Under the pieces are notes generated by a model that was given only the letters and a program-made list of their open reading frames with translations, searched no databases and was not told the DNA's origin. A DNA stretch of 64,000 nt, taken from an uncultured Ruminococcus sp. Lineage in GTDB: Bacteria; Bacillota; Clostridia; Oscillospirales; Ruminococcaceae. The position numbers were made by a program, and so were the translations under genes. Of the stretch, positions 6,537 through 55,699 are shown piece by piece; position 1 is the stretch's first letter, and each line of letters starts with the position of its first letter. The stretch lies in contig CADCFQ010000016.1 of assembly GCA_902800795.1 (NCBI GenBank), positions 1 to 64,000 on the forward strand, read 5' to 3'.

Positions 6537-9191
6537 CTATTTCTTCTTTCGCCTTTGTCTTATAACTATCGCTGCAGCCGTTCCTGCCGCTGCAATACCA
6601 ACAGCCGCCGCGGCTAGTGCTATGGAAGACAAGGCTTTTTTATCTTTGCTGTCCTGAGTTTTGCTTTCTTCTGTATTGACAGCTTCGGCATTTTTGTTTT
6701 TGCCAAACACCTCAAGTGCATCCAGCTGGATATCTCCTTGCTTGACCGTTATGACCGCTGTGTGCTCACCGTCCCCAAGTCCGTTTGCATAGCAGACTAT
6801 CCCTCTTGCGACGACTCCCGGCGCTTTCAGTTCTTTCGCTTCACCGCCGTCAATACTCATAGTTATAACAGCGGATTTTCTGTTGTTTCCGGTCAGTGCA
6901 AAGCCTGTTCCGCTGAACTTGACCGTTACAGAGCAGCCCTCGGTGCCTTTTGAAAGGGTCCTTCTGAAGTTTACAAAGCCGCTCATACAGTTGTGCACCC
7001 AGCTGCCTTCGTAGCTTAAAGGATCATCCGTTTCGTCGAAGCGTGTTATGTAGCTTTCGTCTCCTACCGGCTCAATTATAAGATCATCAAAGCAGTTCTT
7101 GTTATAAGAACTGTAAAGCGCCGCTCTTCCTGCTGAGCCGACAGCCTCTCCCTCGGGATGGGTATATTCAGCGAGCAGCTCACTGCCGAGATAGACTTTG
7201 ATATTATTAAAAAGCGCTTCTATCTTAACTCTGTTTTTCTCGGGCGTAAAGCTTTCAACTTTGCCGCTTGCAAGGCTTGTCTTGTTATAGAGCAGCTCCC
7301 AGCAGCCATTTTCCCATACCAGGAACCTGTAGCCGCTCTCGCCGTTGGCTCCTACGTTGTACCTGAGACCGATACCTGCATAGTTATCGTCAGGCGAATC
7401 CGAGCTTTCGAGCATTATATCGGCGCTTACAGAATAATTGAACCATCTGTCATCTCCGAAATTTGTTGTAGGCGAAGGTGTTCCACCCCATTCATCAGCT
7501 TTTATATCCGGGGTTATCTTCTGCATAAGCACCTTGTTTCCGTCCTTGTTCACCACCTCAAAAGCGCCGCCCTGATCGGTGGTGTAAAGGGGAGCGCCAC
7601 CTCTTTCAGCGAGAAACTCATCATCATACTCAAAATCGTCTTTATATGGCAGAGAAAGGAGAGTGCTCTCTCTTTTGTTTGTAAAGCTGCTCTCTTCACA
7701 CTCGAGCGTTGTTATGGTCACAAGCGAATAGGGCTTGACTGTCACGCTGTAGGTATATTTGCCGTATTTTTCGGCAGGGGAGACAGTATCGACCCTTTTA
7801 AAATAGTTTTCGTCATAGGCTCCGTCGTCCGGACCTCTGGTTTCCCAGACAAAGACCTTGTCTCCTGCCTTTTCAAGGTTTTCCACTGTAAACTCATAGG
7901 TTATCGGCTTGTCGGTGGTGTTGGTCACAGCCACGGAGTAGTCACCTGTCTCGGTGTCGGTCGCCGTCATATAGGTGTAGGTCGCATCCACAACAGCATG
8001 GCCGTCGCCGCCTTTGACTCCGTCCCCAAAGCACGCTTCATCGATGAATGCCCAGCCTTTTTTGAAAAACTGTGAGAAATGAAGCCCCATAAAATAACCT
8101 GTGTCAAGCAGATAGTATCCGTTCCAGGGCTCATCGGCTCTTATCAGCTGCTTCTGAGTATACTGCGCACCGCTGTAATAGGCTGCTACCGCAGGCTGAT
8201 ACTCGTATAGAGTCATACGTCCGCCGGGATACATGGTGATAAAGCGGTTCGCAACATCAAGCATACCGTTTATCTCGGTAAGACCGGACTTTGTTGCATC
8301 ATATTTATATGTCCCCTGGGCATACTCCATCGGCGGACAAGCCTCGCTGAACCACAGCTCCTTGCCGTATTTATCTGCAAGCTCCTGCGCTTCTTCTGTT
8401 GACCAGCTGGTGTAATGGCTGCCTATGACATCGACAGCATCCCTAAGCTCTTCATCTTCCAGCATCTCATCGGCGCAGTACCAGCTTGTGACCTCTTCGC
8501 CTGCAACTATTTTTATCTTTGAATAGTCATAAGCGCAGTCCTTTTCCTCCTTCAGGCTTTTCGACAGATATTTTATCCATTCATAATCAGCGGCACGCTC
8601 ATTTCTTGTTGCACTTACATAATCAAACTCGAGCCCGTATTTTTCAAAAGCTGCATCAAGCGTTTTCTTATACCATTTATATCTTGCTGCATAGATGTCC
8701 TCTGAATCGGTGACCCACCTGGGCTCGCTCCAGTAGAGCATATCAAGAGTAAGATCGGGGTTTATCGCCTTCGCATCTGCTGCGAGCATAAACCCGGCAC
8801 CACGGGTGACGTCAGGCTCCTCGTCCTCTGTCCTCATTACGTTCGGTTCGGTTCCCGAGGATGAATTGATATCGCTTCCCATTTCGATCTTCAGATGATT
8901 TATCCTGAGGCCGTTCTCGCTGAAAAGATGTTCCATTATCTCCTGATAAGCTTCGGGCGACTGCGTTTTATAATCCATAAGCAGCCTGGAGGTGTTGTTT
9001 GCAGACACCATTGCGTTGCCCTTGTAGAGCATATTCTCTTTAGTGTTTGCCTTGCTCCCGTTGATCGTTACCTTTCTCACATCGTTCACCGCCCCTTCTG
9101 CTCTTATCCTGATATCAGTGAAACCTGCCGCTGTACACAGCGTCATCAGCACAGCAGTTATCGCTGCTGTTATCCGTCTGAGTTTTTGCAT
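6537..9191 (-). CDS. GH59-like glycosidase (galactocerebrosidase family), surface anchored
   Basis: The 884-residue protein begins with a signal peptide (RRITAAITAVLMTLCTAAGF). A catalytic TIM barrel of the GH59/GH30 clan follows. The likely acid/base Glu is in SATRNER (about residue 198) and the likely nucleophile Glu in ELWFSEACP (about residue 282). Residues 510-700 look like a laminin-G/concanavalin-type sugar-binding domain and the next 110 residues like another beta-sandwich. The C-terminus has a hydrophobic helix ending in RQRRKKK, a membrane anchor that keeps the enzyme on the cell surface. GH59 enzymes release beta-linked galactose; the true polysaccharide or glycolipid substrate is not readable. 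An AraC regulator lies directly upstream on the same strand. The start is preceded by GGAGGT. Confidence 0.75.
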   Translation of the reverse strand: MQKLRRITAAITAVLMTLCTAAGFTDIRIRAEGAVNDVRKVTINGSKANTKENMLYKGNAMVSANNTSRLLMDYKTQSPEAYQEIMEHLFSENGLRINHLKIEMGSDINSSSGTEPNVMRTEDEEPDVTRGAGFMLAADAKAINPDLTLDMLYWSEPRWVTDSEDIYAARYKWYKKTLDAAFEKYGLEFDYVSATRNERAADYEWIKYLSKSLKEEKDCAYDYSKIKIVAGEEVTSWYCADEMLEDEELRDAVDVIGSHYTSWSTEEAQELADKYGKELWFSEACPPMEYAQGTYKYDATKSGLTEINGMLDVANRFITMYPGGRMTLYEYQPAVAAYYSGAQYTQKQLIRADEPWNGYYLLDTGYFMGLHFSQFFKKGWAFIDEACFGDGVKGGDGHAVVDATYTYMTATDTETGDYSVAVTNTTDKPITYEFTVENLEKAGDKVFVWETRGPDDGAYDENYFKRVDTVSPAEKYGKYTYSVTVKPYSLVTITTLECEESSFTNKRESTLLSLPYKDDFEYDDEFLAERGGAPLYTTDQGGAFEVVNKDGNKVLMQKITPDIKADEWGGTPSPTTNFGDDRWFNYSVSADIMLESSDSPDDNYAGIGLRYNVGANGESGYRFLVWENGCWELLYNKTSLASGKVESFTPEKNRVKIEALFNNIKVYLGSELLAEYTHPEGEAVGSAGRAALYSSYNKNCFDDLIIEPVGDESYITRFDETDDPLSYEGSWVHNCMSGFVNFRRTLSKGTEGCSVTVKFSGTGFALTGNNRKSAVITMSIDGGEAKELKAPGVVARGIVCYANGLGDGEHTAVITVKQGDIQLDALEVFGKNKNAEAVNTEESKTQDSKDKKALSSIALAAAAVGIAAAGTAAAIVIRQRRKKK

Positions 9192-47628: not shown

Positions 47629-48687
47629 TCATAGCCTTTCGACGATCGGTATTACATTCTTTTCAATGAAATCCACACGGTCGAATATCCTCGGTTTAAA
47701 TGTGCCTGTTACACCGACTGAAATGCTCTTTTCGGGATTGACATAGATAATATTGCCGCCGTCACCGATAGCTGCAAATATCGGTTTATCCTTATACGGT
47801 CTGTACCACAGATAACAATACCCCATATTGCCAAACATCTCACCAAGCTGCAATTTTGGCGAAGTCATCTGACCTATCCATTCATTTGAGACAATTCGCT
47901 TATCGTGATAAACACCACCGTTTATCAGCATCCACCCTATCTTCGCCATATCATAAGCCGAGAGTGTCAGCCCCCATCCTGCGGTAACGGTATTCTGCGG
48001 ATCGGAGTACCACTCATTTCCACGGGGATTCTTATTCATCAGGAAATCAAACTGATCTTCCTTACTGCTGTCACCGTGTATCTTGTGTTCGGGGATGCCC
48101 ATAGGCGCAAAGAGATATCTGTTTGCAAAGTCTATGCACTTCATACCCGATGCGTTTTCGATCACACCTGCGAGTATCTGGATACCAAGCGTCGCATACT
48201 TAAATTCACCTGTTATTCCTTCGATCACACCTGCGAGTATCTGGATACCAAGCGTCGCATACTTAAATTCACCTGTTATTCCCGATCTTCCACCGAGCAG
48301 ATCAAGTGCCGCCTTCGTCCAGTCGTCTGAGGTGCAGACCTTTGTCCACGGCTCTGAACGATATTTGTATGGTTCGGTCATTGTAAGCAAATGCTCAAGG
48401 GTGACATTATAGATGGTCTTTTCGCCCCGCTTCACGGTGTACTCTGGGAAAAAGTCCAGCACTTTCTGATCTGTGCTTTTAATAAAGCCCTTGTCAACGG
48501 CGATCCCTGCAAGCAAAGCCATCACACCCTTAGTGACAGACATTACATTTACAGCACTGTCAATCTGAAAACCGTGCCAATTGTCGCTGTATACCATCTC
48601 ACCGTTTCTGACAGCGCATATCTGACAGATATTGCTCTCGTTTCCCGTGCTTTCTTCTACATACTTATGAAGTTCGTTCTTTGTCAT
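47629..48687 (-). CDS. Beta-lactamase-related serine hydrolase with an exact 21-residue internal duplication
   Basis: This 352-residue class C-like serine hydrolase has the nucleophile motif SVTKG near residue 52, the YxN-type motif around SAYDMAKIG, and a C-terminal GDGGN in place of the KTG. A 63-bp segment is present twice in tandem (48157-48219 and 48220-48282), so GITGEFKYATLGIQILAGVI occurs twice. The copies are identical, which points to a recent event that kept the frame. It probably acts on amide or ester bonds of peptidoglycan or small molecules. RBS CGGAGGTATGCT. Confidence 0.85.
   Translation of the reverse strand: MTKNELHKYVEESTGNESNICQICAVRNGEMVYSDNWHGFQIDSAVNVMSVTKGVMALLAGIAVDKGFIKSTDQKVLDFFPEYTVKRGEKTIYNVTLEHLLTMTEPYKYRSEPWTKVCTSDDWTKAALDLLGGRSGITGEFKYATLGIQILAGVIEGITGEFKYATLGIQILAGVIENASGMKCIDFANRYLFAPMGIPEHKIHGDSSKEDQFDFLMNKNPRGNEWYSDPQNTVTAGWGLTLSAYDMAKIGWMLINGGVYHDKRIVSNEWIGQMTSPKLQLGEMFGNMGYCYLWYRPYKDKPIFAAIGDGGNIIYVNPEKSISVGVTGTFKPRIFDRVDFIEKNVIPIVERL
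48157..48282 (-). repeat. Exact 63-bp tandem duplication inside the serine hydrolase gene
   Basis: Bases 48157-48219 are identical to 48220-48282 with a period of 63; the match ends at both flanks. It adds 21 codons without a frameshift. Confidence 0.95.
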
Positions 48688-48866: not shown

Positions 48867-48881
48867 ACGGTTTGTATTCTG

Positions 48882-48985
48882 TTTCATTTGGGTATGTGCT
48901 GATTGTGGTATGCTCCAAAATGCTGAATTGGACTTGTGTGGGACAGTTTATAGGTGCGCCAATAGACTACGCGCTATTGGCATTA
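48882..48985 (+). repeat. Diverged repeat related to 63614-63712, with coding-like character
   Basis: The stretch shares runs such as GTATG, ATTG, AATGCT and TGGA with 63614-63712 in the same frame. The deduced peptides align (CSKMLNWTCVGQFIGAPID and RAIMLKWICIERITDVPIG) with shared ML, W, C and PI. It overlaps no gene and may be the tail of a lost mobile-element gene. Confidence 0.45.
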
Positions 48986-49004
48986 CAACTGATTAGAAAT
49001 GTAG

Positions 49005-49033
49005 TTGACTTTTTAGCTCAAATCATATATAAT
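49005..49033 (+). promoter_or_regulatory. Promoter of the glutamine amidotransferase gene
   Basis: TTGACT (49005-49010) and TATAAT (49028-49033) are 17 bases apart. Transcription should start at about 49040, right at the leader hairpin. Confidence 0.8.
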
Positions 49034-49040
49034 AGAACCA

Positions 49041-49079
49041 GCAATGGTGCTGTCATGACTCCGACAGCACCATTTTTGA
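49041..49079 (+). promoter_or_regulatory. Shared leader hairpin, unit E (amidotransferase gene)
   Basis: AATGGTGCTGTC (49043-49054) pairs perfectly with GACAGCACCATT (49063-49074), followed by TTTGA. It begins GCAATGGTGCT, matching the four leaders on the minus strand. It looks like a terminator but lies between the promoter and the gene. Confidence 0.75.
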
Positions 49080-49096
49080 TTTCAGGAGGTCATAAT

Positions 49097-49792
49097 ATGA
49101 AAACAATCGGAGTTATCCCACTTATAGATTACGGCAGAAACAGCTACTGGATGATACCGGGCTACCTAAATGGCTTGCAAACTGTCGGAGCATTGCCGAT
49201 CATATTGCCTGTCATAGATAAAACCAGTGCGATTCAAGCGGTTATGGAAATGTGTGACGGCTTTCTGTTCACAGGCGGTCAGGACGTTGCTCCGGCTTTG
49301 TACCATTCGGAAAAAAGCCCTTTGTGCGGAGAGTGCAGCCCTGAGCGTGACAAAATGGAAATGCTTATCCTTGACGAAGCCATGAAAAGAGACAAGCCGA
49401 TACTCGGAATCTGTCGTGGGATACAGTTTATCAATGCCGCTTTGGGCGGTACACTCTGGCAGGATATTCCGACAGAACTTCCGAGTGATGTAAAACATTG
49501 TCAAAAACCACCTTATCATATTCCTTCTCACGATGTTGAGATCAAACCTGATTCACCGCTTTATTCTCTCTTGAAAAGGAAAAATATATCCGTCAACAGC
49601 TATCATCATCAAGGTGTTCGTGAGCTGTCTTCACAGCTTATTTGTATGGCTGCCGCCCTTGACGGACTGATCGAAGCGGTGTATGCACCCGATCAGAAAT
49701 TCTTATGGGCGGTACAATGGCATCCCGAACTTGCCTATCAAACCGATGAAAACAGCAGAATGATATTTAAGGAGTTTGTGCGGAATTGTTAG
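49097..49792 (+). CDS. Class I glutamine amidotransferase-like gamma-glutamyl hydrolase (PuuD-like)
   Basis: This 231-residue protein has the class I GATase fold. The nucleophile Cys is in PILGICRGIQFINAALGG and the His and Glu in AVQWHPELAY near the C-terminus. The length, the lack of a synthetase domain and the N-terminal IGVIPLIDYGRNSYWMIPGY place it near the gamma-glutamyl-GABA hydrolase PuuD family, which hydrolyses gamma-glutamyl amides. The start at 49097 follows CAGGAGG; the open frame upstream of it is the untranslated leader. It converges on the RelA/SpoT-like gene with a 4-base overlap of stops, and its leader hairpin matches those of the ATP-grasp operon. Confidence 0.85.
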   Translation: MKTIGVIPLIDYGRNSYWMIPGYLNGLQTVGALPIILPVIDKTSAIQAVMEMCDGFLFTGGQDVAPALYHSEKSPLCGECSPERDKMEMLILDEAMKRDKPILGICRGIQFINAALGGTLWQDIPTELPSDVKHCQKPPYHIPSHDVEIKPDSPLYSLLKRKNISVNSYHHQGVRELSSQLICMAAALDGLIEAVYAPDQKFLWAVQWHPELAYQTDENSRMIFKEFVRNC

Positions 49793-50778
49793 TCGATCAG
49801 GTCATTTTGAAAGCGTGACAGATGCTCAAAAGGCAGGATCTGCCGACCTCTGAATAAACCACATCCGTCATTGATCAGTTGGTTATTGAACGCCTTGAAC
49901 ATATTTACATTGACAGTAGAAAGGTCAAGCTCCTGCAACTTCGAAAAACGCTCGTATGCTTCATCAAAATATCTGCATTCACCGACAGGGATATTATCAC
50001 GTCTTGTTCTGCTTTCCTCCTGCTGGCGTTCATATCCGAAATGATTAGCCGTACCTATCTCCGCAAGATCGTCCATATCCTTTGTTCTGAGCTGTACCTC
50101 AGTATAGCACCTTGCAAGGTTGTCATAAAAAGTGATATGAAGTGATTGGTAGCCTGAAGGACGAGGAAATGCGACATAATCTCTGTAATATGGTCGGTTA
50201 TTGCTTATGATCCGTTCGTCTGTTTTATCATGTGCAGAACCGGAAAGTTCAGCCGTAAAGCCTCTTACTTCCAGAAATTCTGGCAATGTATTAGCAATCT
50301 CATAAAGAAAGATCCTTTCTACTTCGTCTTGTGTCATGCCTTCTTCCAAGTGACATAAAGGCATAGAGATCACGATGCGGTATGCGATCAGATCTCTGAA
50401 ACAGGTCAGATTACTTTTGATCTCAGCTTCATTCGGATACCGGCTGTGCTTTTGATAATAGTCATAGATATACTCCAAAATATAGCCGTTGAATTTTTCC
50501 TCGGCTCTTATCAGAGATTTGATCCTACCCTTGAAAGTAAATGCGAGAAACGGATATTTCTGTGTCATGTATTTGTAAAATTCCTTTATCCTCTGTGACT
50601 GAGAGGTAAGGAAGTCATTATGTTCGAGCAATTCAATGATCTGTATCAGAAAATTACAATGGGCAAGGTCAATTGGGTTATTGGTATCGATTGACGATTT
50701 TCTCAGATCACCCGAATACTGGTGCAGTATTTTAAGCACAGTATCACCTGAAAATAAATAGTCATTTAATGTGACCAT
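49789..50778 (-). CDS. RelA/SpoT-domain (p)ppGpp synthetase-like protein
   Basis: This 329-residue protein has the RelA/SpoT synthetase domain in its middle: FRDLIAYRIVI, then YVAFPRPSGYQSLHITF, and EVQLRTKDMDDLAEIGTANH. There is no HD hydrolase domain before it and no ACT/TGS after it, so it resembles a single-domain alarmone synthetase with helical extensions on both sides. RBS TGGAGGATATGT. It is the last gene of the ATP-grasp operon. Whether it makes pppGpp or has been recruited to another pyrophosphate transfer is open. Confidence 0.8.
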   Translation of the reverse strand: MVTLNDYLFSGDTVLKILHQYSGDLRKSSIDTNNPIDLAHCNFLIQIIELLEHNDFLTSQSQRIKEFYKYMTQKYPFLAFTFKGRIKSLIRAEEKFNGYILEYIYDYYQKHSRYPNEAEIKSNLTCFRDLIAYRIVISMPLCHLEEGMTQDEVERIFLYEIANTLPEFLEVRGFTAELSGSAHDKTDERIISNNRPYYRDYVAFPRPSGYQSLHITFYDNLARCYTEVQLRTKDMDDLAEIGTANHFGYERQQEESRTRRDNIPVGECRYFDEAYERFSKLQELDLSTVNVNMFKAFNNQLINDGCGLFRGRQILPFEHLSRFQNDLID

Positions 50779-50837
50779 ACATATCCTCCATAATATGGAG
50801 CTGTTGCCTGAATCCTCATAGCAGCAGCTCCACTTTA

Positions 50838-51011
50838 TTATTGTTTTGTATTAACTGTTGTTGTAATGGTGTTACCGCCGTTTGTAACAGTTGTAGTGAC
50901 CGATGATGTTGTAGTTGATGATACTGACGAGCTGCTGCTTGTAATGCTGCCGCTGACAGACACCGTAGTTACCGTTTTCCCGTCATCGGAAATCATTGCT
51001 TTTTGTTTCAT
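50838..51011 (-). CDS. 57-residue Ser/Thr/Val-rich peptide, candidate substrate of the ligase operon
   Basis: A complete 58-codon frame starts at ATG 51011, 33 bases after the stop of the second M14-type gene, and ends at TAA 50838. The peptide begins MKQKAMISDDGKTVTTVSVS and is then almost only Ser, Thr, Val, Gly and Asn, with TNGGNTITTTV near the end. It has no signal peptide or membrane segment. The ribosome site is weak (AAGGA about 14 bases upstream). No family was recognised. Its place inside an operon encoding an ATP-grasp ligase and two amidase-like proteins suggests it is a peptide to be modified or used as a scaffold (inference). Confidence 0.55.
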   Translation of the reverse strand: MKQKAMISDDGKTVTTVSVSGSITSSSSSVSSTTTSSVTTTVTNGGNTITTTVNTKQ

Positions 51012-51044
51012 GAAATTCTTTCTTTTCCTTTTTCTTTATCTTCC

Positions 51045-51968
51045 TCACTTGATGATCTTGAAGCACACAGTCTTAGCATTTATCAGCGGACTGTTATAGG
51101 CAAAATACACTGTCCCCGATACAGGTGTTCTGATCTCTGCAACAAGCTCCCCATCAAGGGGATCGTAAATACTGCCCAGCACATCGCCGTGTTCTACTGT
51201 TTTGCCGATCTCTGCCGTTCTGAAAAACAGCCCTGCCGCTTCAGATTGTATCTGCTTTGTTTTACTCTCGTTTAGTATCTCGGTGATATATCCTGGCGGT
51301 GTTTTTGCCGTAACGATACCACGGTTATTCATAAAGCGCAGAATCGCATTGACAGCTTCATCTGCCGCCTTGACATCTATCTCATCGGTTGCATTTGCGT
51401 AGACCGAGAACGCCTTAGTCTCCCACACCTGCCAGTTGTAGTTGAGCGTAGTCGTATCATAAGGTCTTGGCTTGCGGATTATGCCAAATTCAAGCCCGAA
51501 ATCCTTCATGATCTCAGGGTCGGTGAAGTCCGTGTCCATGATCTTGACATGGGGCAGGAAGATACCCGGCTGATAGAAGCTCGCAAGCTGTATGCCGTAC
51601 TCATAGCCTTGTAATTTACTAAACACGCCGTCAGCGATACGCTGTGTTGTCTCACCCAGAGCATAGCCGGGGAACATTCTGTTGATGTCCGTATTGTCCA
51701 TTGCCCAGAAACGCTTACCGATATTCATGGAATAATAATTCACGCAGGGAACGACAAGTATTTCTGTGTCCTCAGCGATCTTGCCCTCTGATTCAAGTTT
51801 TTTGAGTGCCTGCACCATTCGGGAGCAGACATACATCTGCTGTACTTCGTTTCCTCGCATAGCCCCCACGATTGCAAGAGCCTTTTTGCCGTGACCGAAG
51901 CGAAAACCTATAATATCAAGCTGTTCACGGTAAGGCGATTTGAGTGAAAATAGTATATTCTTTTTCAT
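51045..51968 (-). CDS. Succinylglutamate desuccinylase/aspartoacylase-like protein, zinc site lost
   Basis: This 307-residue protein aligns along its length with the neighbouring M14-type protein but has lost the active site. The zinc HxxE motif GTHGDE becomes GAMRGNE (Arg38 for His, Glu41 kept), the DVHSS zinc His becomes IQLASF, and the catalytic VEMG Glu is replaced by VYANA. It keeps the fold and a biotinyl/lipoyl-like C-terminal beta domain (EHGDVLGSIYDPLDG). It is probably a non-catalytic partner. It overlaps the previous gene by 4 bases. Confidence 0.82.
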   Translation of the reverse strand: MKKNILFSLKSPYREQLDIIGFRFGHGKKALAIVGAMRGNEVQQMYVCSRMVQALKKLESEGKIAEDTEILVVPCVNYYSMNIGKRFWAMDNTDINRMFPGYALGETTQRIADGVFSKLQGYEYGIQLASFYQPGIFLPHVKIMDTDFTDPEIMKDFGLEFGIIRKPRPYDTTTLNYNWQVWETKAFSVYANATDEIDVKAADEAVNAILRFMNNRGIVTAKTPPGYITEILNESKTKQIQSEAAGLFFRTAEIGKTVEHGDVLGSIYDPLDGELVAEIRTPVSGTVYFAYNSPLINAKTVCFKIIK

Positions 51969-52903
51969 TCGGCATCACCTCCCGCAGGCTGTAAAATTCT
52001 TGCAAGGAGTGAACCGCCGTATACCACGGGATATTCACGGAGCGTAAATATCATTCCGTCACAAACAGCAAGCACCCGTTCGACCACCTTTGAGGTAAGC
52101 GGATCGACCACATCTCCGATATGATCGCCCTGCTTGACGTGATCGCCAAAGTTGGCACACGGCACAAATATCCCTGCTGCATCGGAATTGACAAAGCCTA
52201 CCTCTCGTCCCTCCGAGATAACAGGCTCTCGCACAGGAGAAGTCTCGCCCTGCCACATTCCAAGCTCTTTCATCATATTCAGCACACCATCAAAAAGCTG
52301 TTTGCAGTATTCCTTTGTGATACGCATACCAACTCCCATTTCCACCACAAGTGTCTTTGTCCCCCTGCTGTTGAGGGTGTGAGCAAGTGTTGATTCCAGC
52401 ACCGTTGCGGCATCGTGTATCCATACAAAATCCACATTCAGCATTTTGGCGTAAGGGACAAGTGTTTCTGCTGTTGGCACGCTAATGCGTATCTGCGGTA
52501 TTTCTTTTAGAAAGATATTGCTGGAATGCACATCAATGCATACGTCCGATCCGCTCAGATCGTCAACGATAGAGGAGCATATTACTTCCACCATAGTTCC
52601 ACGCTTTGTGCCGGGGAAAACTCTGTTCATATCAAGGTCAAACATGGGTATGCCTCTTGTAATACTGTCGATACCCATAGGGTTAAGGGCAGGATATATG
52701 TCAACAATGCCGTCAAGCTGTTCGATATGCTCGTCCATATAACTGCCGACCATGTAGGCAAGATACTGTCCCTCCAGCTCATCGCCGTGGGTGCCTGTTA
52801 CAAAGCTAAGTCTTGTCTTGCTCCTGCCGTTTTGTATCCGCCGTTTCTGTATATTCAAATTCTCATTCACTGCAAGCGGTATGCTTGCAACGATTTCACA
52901 CAT
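51965..52903 (-). CDS. Succinylglutamate desuccinylase/aspartoacylase family amidohydrolase (active form)
   Basis: This 312-residue M14-related zinc enzyme has zinc ligands His39 and Glu42 in GTHGDELEG, and His126 in CIDVHSSN. It has the substrate arginine in DLDMNRVFPG and the catalytic Glu in LVVEMGVG. A C-terminal lipoyl-like beta domain (DHVKQGDHIGDVVDPL) follows. The family hydrolyses N-acyl amino acids. Start at 52903 follows AAAGGA; a TTG at 52921 is part of that ribosome site. It lies between the transglutaminase and its inactive paralog. Confidence 0.85.
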   Translation of the reverse strand: MCEIVASIPLAVNENLNIQKRRIQNGRSKTRLSFVTGTHGDELEGQYLAYMVGSYMDEHIEQLDGIVDIYPALNPMGIDSITRGIPMFDLDMNRVFPGTKRGTMVEVICSSIVDDLSGSDVCIDVHSSNIFLKEIPQIRISVPTAETLVPYAKMLNVDFVWIHDAATVLESTLAHTLNSRGTKTLVVEMGVGMRITKEYCKQLFDGVLNMMKELGMWQGETSPVREPVISEGREVGFVNSDAAGIFVPCANFGDHVKQGDHIGDVVDPLTSKVVERVLAVCDGMIFTLREYPVVYGGSLLARILQPAGGDAE

Positions 52904-52917
52904 TGGTATCATTCCTT

Positions 52918-53688
52918 TCAAGTCAGTACGCTTCTTACAAGCTGTAGCTGTTTCGTGTATTTTCCGAACATCACACCCCTGTCAATGGCACAGTCACGGA
53001 AATCTCTGCCCTGTGAGATCACAAGGTAATCATCGCTGACGGGGCAGTTGTTGGCAGGGTCAATGCCCTCCCAGTGATCGCCAGTCCAATACTCCACCCA
53101 TGAATGTGTTTCCCCGTCGCAGAACGCGAGTCCTGCAATGTATCTTGCGGCGATACCATCCATCCTGAGAAGCGAGATCAGGATATGTGAAAAGTCCTGA
53201 CATACCCCTTTATTCAGAGCAAAAGCCTGTGCAGCCGTAGTTGTTGTATCTGTAAAGCCCTTTTTATATTCTATCGTATCCGAGAGAATATTGCAGAAAT
53301 ACTCTGCTTTGTCAGAAGCCGTACCGGTGCATTTGCCCTTAATGCTGTCATAAAACGATCTCAGTCCGTCATCGGGCTTTGTATACTGCGACTGATAGAA
53401 ATAGCAGGGCAGTAAGTCCAGACGGTGCTTTGTGTGATCGACCTCTGCCGAGCCTTTGATCTCATAATCAAGGAAGCGGTGATCGTCTCTCATGTAACCG
53501 GCTGTAACGTTGTTTCCGAACGCATCAACCGTCTGCTGTGTAGGAACAAATGGCGAGATATTCAGGCTGCACGACAGGATATGCTGGGTGTCTGTTTCAG
53601 GGGGCATGATACGGAGTGCAAAGCTGTGATTGTGAACATAATCATCAAATGTCAGCTTGGTAGAATAATAAAAATTCACACGCTTCAT
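52918..53688 (-). CDS. Transglutaminase-like cysteine peptidase
   Basis: This 256-residue protein has the bacterial transglutaminase N-terminal beta domain (residues 1-90) and the catalytic core with Cys163 in NKGVCQDFSHIL, His in ETHSWVEYW and Asp in GIDPANN. Such proteins act as peptidases or amide transferases and are regularly found next to alpha-E and circularly permuted ATP-grasp genes. Start overlaps the alpha-E stop (ATGA). Confidence 0.92.
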   Translation of the reverse strand: MKRVNFYYSTKLTFDDYVHNHSFALRIMPPETDTQHILSCSLNISPFVPTQQTVDAFGNNVTAGYMRDDHRFLDYEIKGSAEVDHTKHRLDLLPCYFYQSQYTKPDDGLRSFYDSIKGKCTGTASDKAEYFCNILSDTIEYKKGFTDTTTTAAQAFALNKGVCQDFSHILISLLRMDGIAARYIAGLAFCDGETHSWVEYWTGDHWEGIDPANNCPVSDDYLVISQGRDFRDCAIDRGVMFGKYTKQLQLVRSVLT

Positions 53689-54386
53689 GCCATTACCTCC
53701 GAAGTATCAAACAGATGACCGAGACTTTCGATCGCTTTATCAGAATGCAGCAGATATTCTTCCTCGCTGCCAAGGATCTCCACGATATGAGAAAGATATC
53801 TTGTATTGTAGCGATACGGAGTATCCTTTGGAACACGGCGGAGATTCTTGCACAGCCTTACATATTCTTTATGAACCGCTTCATAAGGATATTTCATTCG
53901 CATATACAGATCCAGCCTTTCAAGCGTCTTGCCGATGTAGATGATATTTCTTATCTCATCATCATAGATGTGCTCGTTGACGCTGCCCCAGAAGCTGTAA
54001 AGAATATCCTTCAGCGGCAGAAGCGAGAGCCTGACATTCGCCTTGTCATTTGACCGGGTAAGGGTGTCTTTTGCCATTTGCAGAAATGACAGAGATTTTG
54101 TTGATATCTCCTCACGCAGTACTATGCCGTTGTCGTATGCCCTTTCAAGACAGTACGCCGCCGAGTTCGGGTTGAATTCATCATACAGAAAACTGCGAAT
54201 AAAATCAATGCTGTCAGTATATGTGTCCGTCAGCCCAAAATAGCCGAGATACTCTCTGTAGCCGTATTTATCGTCGATCATTTTATCATACAGCTTATCA
54301 AGCGACCTGAGCGTGATAAAAAATCTTTCCGTATAGCGTCCCAGCCAGTAAAGGCGGTCGCTGTGTTCTATCGAGATAGTACCCAT
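53685..54386 (-). CDS. Alpha-E domain protein
   Basis: This 233-residue all-helical protein is of the alpha-E family: the N-terminal SDRLYWLGRYTERFFITLRSLD is characteristic. It is shorter than the roughly 310 residues usual for the family. Alpha-E proteins are the constant partner of circularly permuted ATP-grasp ligases and may hold the substrate. It overlaps both neighbours (19 bases with the ATP-grasp gene, 4 with the transglutaminase gene). Confidence 0.9.
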   Translation of the reverse strand: MGTISIEHSDRLYWLGRYTERFFITLRSLDKLYDKMIDDKYGYREYLGYFGLTDTYTDSIDFIRSFLYDEFNPNSAAYCLERAYDNGIVLREEISTKSLSFLQMAKDTLTRSNDKANVRLSLLPLKDILYSFWGSVNEHIYDDEIRNIIYIGKTLERLDLYMRMKYPYEAVHKEYVRLCKNLRRVPKDTPYRYNTRYLSHIVEILGSEEEYLLHSDKAIESLGHLFDTSEVMA

Positions 54387-55699
54387 GTGTCTTTAAAGCC
54401 TCCTCCTTGTGATGAGTTTACTACGAATGAATCGGGGTTGCGTGAGAAACGGGTAAGACCCGATGCCCACACCTTTGTTTTCTCACCCGACAGCACGAAT
54501 GCTCTCAGGTCTGCTTTTCGCATTACCGTTTCGCCGTTATCAAGTATCGGCAGGTCGAGAAAGTCAATTACCTCCTGTGCGATGAAACGCCTCGGCTCTG
54601 CTATGATAGTTTTACGGAATTCCTCCAGTTTTTCCTTTGTGAGGTCACTTCCGAACACCACGCCGTAGCCGCCTGCTTCTGCAACGTCCTTGATGACGAG
54701 CTTTTCGAGGTTGTCCATAACATACTTCATATCCTCATCATAGAACGGCAGATATGTCGGTGCGTTTTTGAGTATCGGCTCTTCGCCGAGATAGTATTTT
54801 ATCATCTTCGGCACGAAATAGTATATGCCCTTGTCGTCCGCAACACCGTTGCCGGGGGCGTTGACAATTCCTACATTTCCGCTGCGGTAGGCTTCCATAA
54901 GATTTGGTATGCCGATGAGCGATTCGGGCAGGAACGTCAGCGGGTCGAGGTATTCGTCTGCTATACGCCGATAAAGCACGCCTATCCTTGTTTTGCTTCC
55001 TGAATAGGTACGCTGATACAGGATATTGTCCTCAACAAAAAGCTCATCGTTCTGTACCAGCACCGAACCTGTATGCTCCGCAAGGTATGAATGCTCAAAA
55101 TACGCCGCATTGTAGCGCCCCGGGGTAAGTATAGCCCTGATGCCTCCGCAGTTAGAATACTCCATTGTCTCTTTCAGCAGCTCTGCATAACCTCTGTTGT
55201 CAACGATATGGTTTTCAGAAAAAGCCTGCGGTGCGGCGATGCGGGTAAGCTCTCTTGCTATAAGGGGATATGATGCGCCCGAGGGTATCCGCAGGTTATC
55301 CTCTAAGATATACCATTCGCCGTCCTTTGCCTGCACAAGGTCTATCCCCGAAATGTGACTGTACACCTTGTTTTTCGGCGTAATGCCCTCGCACTCGGCA
55401 AGATAGCCCTTTGAGATATAGATAAAGTCCTCCGGTATGATGCCGTCACGCACGATCTTTTTTTCGTGGTAAATATCAAAAAGGAACTCATTCAGGGCGT
55501 TTACACGTTGAACAAGTCCCTTTTCCATACTCTGAAAATCTTCCGCCGAAATGACTCGTGGAATTGGATCGAACGGGAAAAACTGTTCATTGAACACGCC
55601 GTCTTTGTATATACCGAACTTGACACCATATCTTCTGAGAAGTTCATTGATCTCGCTTGCATTACCCACTGCCTTATTGAACTGCTTCTGCTGTGTCAT
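54368..55699 (-). CDS. Circularly permuted ATP-grasp ligase
   Basis: This 443-residue protein has the circularly permuted ATP-grasp features GIDLVQAKDGEWYILEDNLR, PGRYNAAYFEHSYLA, NAPGNGVADDKGIYYFVPKM, LVIKDVAEAGGYGVVFG and RFIAQEVIDFLDLP. The enzyme family is thought to form amide or peptide bonds through acyl-phosphates. It is first in an operon with alpha-E, transglutaminase, two M14-type proteins, a Ser/Thr-rich peptide and a RelA-like synthetase. RBS GGAGTGATAAC. Confidence 0.92.
   Translation of the reverse strand: MTQQKQFNKAVGNASEINELLRRYGVKFGIYKDGVFNEQFFPFDPIPRVISAEDFQSMEKGLVQRVNALNEFLFDIYHEKKIVRDGIIPEDFIYISKGYLAECEGITPKNKVYSHISGIDLVQAKDGEWYILEDNLRIPSGASYPLIARELTRIAAPQAFSENHIVDNRGYAELLKETMEYSNCGGIRAILTPGRYNAAYFEHSYLAEHTGSVLVQNDELFVEDNILYQRTYSGSKTRIGVLYRRIADEYLDPLTFLPESLIGIPNLMEAYRSGNVGIVNAPGNGVADDKGIYYFVPKMIKYYLGEEPILKNAPTYLPFYDEDMKYVMDNLEKLVIKDVAEAGGYGVVFGSDLTKEKLEEFRKTIIAEPRRFIAQEVIDFLDLPILDNGETVMRKADLRAFVLSGEKTKVWASGLTRFSRNPDSFVVNSSQGGGFKDTWVLSR

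Follow-up and report, generated by a model that had tools for sequence, protein, structure and literature searches.

The window analysed here is a stretch of 64,000 nucleotides that carries on its minus strand an operon in which Pfam matches and the peptide ORF give the order CP_ATPgrasp, Alpha-E, transglutaminase, M14a, M14b, peptide and RelA_SpoT. The first three genes encode a circularly permuted ATP-grasp ligase (54368–55699), an Alpha-E protein (53685–54386) and a transglutaminase-like protein (52918–53688). They are followed by the genes of two AstE/AspA-like proteins, M14a (51965–52921), which retains its HxxE and DxH ligands, and M14b (51045–51968), a pseudoenzyme in which HGDE has become RGNE, DVHS has become QLAS and the glutamate of VVEMG is absent. 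As the metal ligands are missing from M14b, the initial annotation was right to call it an inactive M14 protein and to place the peptide between this gene and a RelA-like one, the downstream protein having a RelA_SpoT domain (49789–50778; the gene is called rel below). A gene for a Peptidase C26/class-I glutamine amidotransferase lies on the plus strand (48872–49792), convergent with the operon. Divergence is much faster in the Alpha-E gene than in its operon neighbors: its DNA differs from that of the related locus L105 by 25%, compared to 8–13% for the ATP-grasp, transglutaminase, M14a and M14b genes. Elsewhere in the window, in a beta-lactamase-like ORF (47629–48687), a stretch of about 20 residues (GITGEFKYATLGIQILAGVIE) occurs twice in perfect tandem, a duplication that is either real or an assembly artefact.

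The subject of this work is a 57-codon ORF on the minus strand (50838–51011) with the translation MKQKAMISDDGKTVTTVSVSGSITSSSSSVSSTTTSSVTTTVTNGGNTITTTVNTKQ. Threonine (16 residues), serine (13) and valine (7) make up 63% of this sequence, the highest combined share among the 198 ORFs of at least 50 amino acids in the window, where the second reaches 44%; the Ser/Thr/Val-rich frame of 57 residues originally reported here is therefore present as described. Between the ORF and rel is a GC-rich hairpin on the minus strand (50795–50833; MFE of the spacer −22 kcal/mol). The same hairpin is found behind the peptide gene in locus L116, where rel is absent and a T run comes next, and it may therefore be the terminator of the operon. 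Both sides of the hairpin differ between the window and locus L104, by a change of U-A to C-G.

Scanning GTDB genome contigs for M14b gave 80 named loci, the best 80 relatives, and in 20 of these a homologue of the peptide is encoded directly behind M14b, the gene that stands immediately upstream wherever a homologue occurs. These include Ruminococcus flavefaciens FD-1 (L127) and 007c (L136), as well as a more distant homologue in another genus (G080, locus L144). The family is absent behind M14b in the R. albus loci L112 and L168; these and a third locus of the same type, L122, have a spacer of 181–188 nt between M14b and rel that contains a hairpin and no ORF. An M14b-anchored survey within the genus returned 12 operon copies, the majority having no ORF between M14b and RelA, and in four copies the gap is 13–20 nt. 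With the window peptide as query a search of 61 genomes found only one other copy, and a search of genome contigs gave no match, although the low complexity of the sequence may defeat pattern and tblastn searching. Using the longer N-terminus of a sister copy as query recovered homologues in other genera, all of them directly behind M14b.

A family HMM gave 18 matches in 17 whole genomes, all 18 at the operon and none elsewhere; UBA1190 has two operons and two family copies, and the three genomes lacking the family at the operon have no copy in the rest of the genome. Samples of approximately 390 genomes each at the order and class level added one operon-borne member (G646) and a second match (G449, E 4.6e-4, within a 386-residue frame) that was rejected as spurious. 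No copy in a phage or plasmid turned up in a tblastn search whose query was a hand-made consensus. On the M14b tree, presence and absence of the family requires 9 changes, all within one large clade, compared to a mean of 18.7 for shuffled labels, a distribution that fits an old gain followed by repeated loss, or some transfer. The family is almost certainly genuine, and very probably bound to the operon. It is previously unnamed and new to Pfam and NCBIfam, and belongs to one lineage's version of the amide-ligase operon, that of Ruminococcus and related gut bacteria.

Several loci differ in what lies beside the peptide gene. In L147, L061, L065, L067, L068 and L075 a membrane protein judged by eye to be FUSC/aromatic-acid-exporter-like is encoded directly after M14b or the peptide gene, which suggests that the product of the operon may be exported. 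At 7935–8105 and downstream in L114, the peptide gene is closely followed by recombinase/integrase-like genes of opposite orientation, apparently the result of a mobile element inserting at the operon's end. In L144 the place of rel behind the peptide is taken by class-II glutamine amidotransferase-like and C26 genes.

Canonical members of the family are 48–64 amino acids long. Their start codons usually lie 7–14 nt after the M14b stop (range −1 to 78), in most cases with a good Shine-Dalgarno sequence. They share a head with the consensus MEKKEFSETKTxVSxDGKT, followed by a Ser/Thr tail. In six canonical pairs, the pooled dN/dS of the head (alignment columns 1–32) is 0.10, compared to 0.385 in the tail and 0.041 in M14b; these ratios indicate purifying selection on the head of the canonical copies and less constraint on the tail. 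Start spacing, Shine-Dalgarno sequences and dN/dS values together identify the canonical gene as protein-coding. Two of the checks proposed with the initial annotation, for homologues at equivalent loci and for dN/dS across them, came out in favor of an overlooked small gene in the ligase operon, dN/dS being well below 1 in the canonical copies. The C-terminus is not conserved across the family, and no Asp/Glu, Cys or GG position of the tail is conserved in the 18-member consensus. Sequence searches of Pfam, NCBIfam and the PDB gave no significant match, and Rfam no credible one. A likeness to PipB2_N (PF21684) is confined to the tail of two of the 18 members (E 0.0018 and 0.0074; 18.7 bits against a curated cut-off of 27), and this weak match was rejected as an effect of composition.

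The structure of the intact L104 peptide was predicted using AlphaFold2 with an alignment of 18 rows, giving a mean pLDDT of 93.8 and a pTM of 0.71. The model has four antiparallel strands (residues 2–13, 19–32, 35–50 and 53–62), with DG and NGG turns at the ends of the hairpins. It is reasonably likely that canonical members form a flat four-stranded antiparallel beta-sheet of this kind, but the prediction may be idealised given the low complexity of a sequence rich in Thr, Ser and Val. The predicted sheet has almost no hydrophobic core, which makes a stable monomer doubtful. The Foldseek results were limited to antiparallel sheets of a generic kind, and no match reached E ≤ 0.001. Folding the window peptide from its single sequence gave a weak model (pLDDT 68.5), which is not comparable with the 18-row one.

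The copy in the window lies directly behind M14b like the others, and differs from them at its 5′ end. DNA alignment with L104, L105 and L106 shows that the region homologous to the canonical N-terminus occupies 51000–51030 on the minus strand, where KEKKEFHETK can still be read in another frame. The position of the canonical start codon (51030–51028) is AAG, and a single base at 50999 that the three nearest loci lack splits the frame of the canonical head from that of the tail, the latter running from ISDDGKT. The ATG of the window ORF is out of frame in the relatives. As a consequence the ORF lacks about 11 conserved N-terminal residues and most of strand 1; the family motif M-x-K-K-E-F-x-E-T-K-T-x-x-S-x-D-G-K-T is not present, being in frame only from ISDDGKT, from where the peptide is homologous to canonical members and matches the family HMM with an E-value of 2.8e-18. 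The frame had been described as complete; the ORF does exist, but it begins at a noncanonical ATG and is shorter than the canonical copies at its N-terminus. That the copy is altered at its 5′ end is highly likely, a sequencing or assembly error being a possible cause, and judged on its sequence it appears to be a derived, damaged member of the family.

Comparison with the nearest relatives points in the same direction. Between the window and L104, dN/dS is approximately 1 for the peptide and 0.026 for M14b, the peptide value coming from some 13–20 substitutions with head codons misaligned by the frame change. L105 and L106, the two closest relatives of the window that have the full operon, are the two stop-interrupted copies among the 20 homologues, with a TAA after codon 34; both have the same M14b protein as L104. 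The intact L104 peptide comes from a MAG with a second copy of the operon, and the contig that encodes it is 4.4 kb long. The initial annotation had let its proposal depend on homologues at equivalent loci and on a frame preserved between strains; the homologues exist, while in the window clade the frame is broken. In this clade the gene is probably in decay, or has at best a weak secondary start for its translation, and we consider the window copy to be probably nonfunctional, the ORF being a remnant or a re-started copy.

Two other explanations of the window ORF have to be weighed. The ORF could be a low-complexity frame arising by chance, and its length is weak evidence to the contrary, since a sense ORF of at least 57 codons arises in 99 of 3000 first-order Markov versions (3.3%) of the 266-nt intergenic stretch. 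Whether it is genuine is therefore decided by homology: orthologues occupy the same position at approximately 20 loci, E-values against the family HMM go down to 1e-29, alignment gaps are whole codons and the canonical copies are under purifying selection. Together these refute a chance origin at the level of the family and leave it a negligible probability. Alternatively the new start and a compensating frame change could yield a shorter but useful protein, as a single length change brings an existing out-of-frame ATG into the old tail frame and the tail contains no stop. This seems unlikely given the loss of the conserved KKEFxETKT strand, the near-neutral dN/dS and the nonsense codons in the sister copies, and given a Shine-Dalgarno sequence so weak that 25% of random ATGs have an equal or better one.

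The role of the intact family is also open to more than one explanation. A Thr/Ser-rich short ORF followed in the window clade by a stable hairpin before rel could encode a thrL-like leader peptide, which would regulate the downstream RelA_SpoT gene in response to charged tRNA, and peptide and rel do co-occur across loci (15/6 against 9/31, Fisher p 0.0003). This association is lost under phylogenetic independent-pair testing, and the head is conserved as protein. The spacer is also at odds with a terminator/antiterminator arrangement: a hairpin is found in other loci, but at nine loci of the R. flavefaciens group only 1–4 nt separate the peptide stop from the rel start, too little for an attenuator to fit. 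As six loci (L114, L116, L128, L142, L144 and L147) moreover hold the peptide without rel, attenuation is largely excluded and must be regarded as very improbable. The peptide could instead be a ribosomally made acceptor, to which the ATP-grasp/Alpha-E ligase would add amide-linked residues that the AspA-like and transglutaminase-like proteins would trim, in the manner of a RiPP. The strict linkage to the ligase operon is in keeping with this, as is the fourfold difference in dN/dS between conserved head and variable Ser/Thr tail, which resembles a leader and core, and operons of the related Anbu type have been suggested to serve in protein tagging or peptide synthesis, their substrate being unknown (PMC5666114, PMC6376114). 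Set against these points, the peptide is missing from most operon copies, its C-terminus, a possible site of residue addition for such ligases, is not conserved, and the tail offers none of the constant Asp/Glu, Cys or GG sites noted above. A substrate role is consequently possible but not the likelier reading, and it is less likely still that the family serves the circularly permuted ATP-grasp/Alpha-E module as a dedicated ribosomal substrate specific to the lineage, or as its assembly platform, and is the first target identified for it.

We tentatively favor a role for the small protein as a nonenzymatic accessory partner of the ligase/AspA-like module, a reading we hold at a little under even confidence. 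The canonical fold, with Thr, Ser and Val as nearly its sole residues, would consist of a conserved first hairpin, the head, and a free-running second hairpin, the tail. A sheet with hardly any hydrophobic core, doubtful as a stable monomer, would be expected to work bound to a partner, and for this reason a partner-bound role is preferred. The head might dock on proteins of the operon as an accessory subunit or scaffold, the first candidate being the AspA-like pseudoenzyme M14b, whose gene precedes that of the peptide in every case. The retention of the peptide without rel, the frequent presence of rel without the peptide and the result of the pair test all place the natural partner on the ligase/M14b side. 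Any such role must be dispensable, since the operons of most genomes lack the small protein, and the suggestion that it might be a carrier does not hold for an obligatory one. Taken as a whole, an operon-bound beta-sheet family with a partner role and an altered copy in the window is the best explanation available, and we give it an even chance of being correct.

A small protein that is under selection and confined to one lineage's version of the operon is the sole shortlisted partner or substrate for the module. The family can be tested in a culturable species, R. flavefaciens (FD-1 or 007c), and it is an example of the small genes that gene callers and database families miss. If the substrate reading were true, this would be the first identified target of a widespread enzyme system without a known substrate.

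Three known systems invite comparison. Attenuation leaders of the thrL type consist of a Thr-rich short ORF, then a hairpin, then a gene of amino acid starvation physiology, and the window locus resembles them in all three respects; the family differs in its length of about 60 amino acids, its conserved head sequence, its occurrence without the downstream gene and its lack of an attenuator spacer in R. flavefaciens. Graspetides are ATP-grasp RiPPs with a leader motif Phhx(1,2)h or a relative of it, and a core in which conserved pairs of Thr/Ser and Asp/Glu (or Lys) give a product with lactone or lactam cross-links (PMC8939145). The likeness to them lies in a short peptide that is rich in Thr/Ser and conserved in its N-terminal part, with an ATP-grasp gene adjoining. 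In contrast to graspetides, the ligase here belongs to the circularly permuted family CP_ATPgrasp, the leader motif is absent from the consensus of 18 members, and the many Thr/Ser residues of the tail are accompanied by few acidic residues, which are not conserved, and by no constant GG site. The Anbu-type operon comprises ATP-grasp, Alpha-E, transglutaminase and peptidase genes (Iyer et al. 2009, as summarised in PMC5666114 and PMC6376114), and the ATP-grasp/Alpha-E/transglutaminase module is found in many bacteria, with substrate and product given as unknown (PMC5666114, PMC6376114). The window and its related loci have the same core in the same order; the Anbu peptidase gene is not seen in the window operon, its place being occupied by the AspA/AstE-like genes. 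The window-type operon differs further in often having a RelA_SpoT gene next, and in the small predicted beta-sheet protein, which would be an addition made in Ruminococcus-type bacteria.
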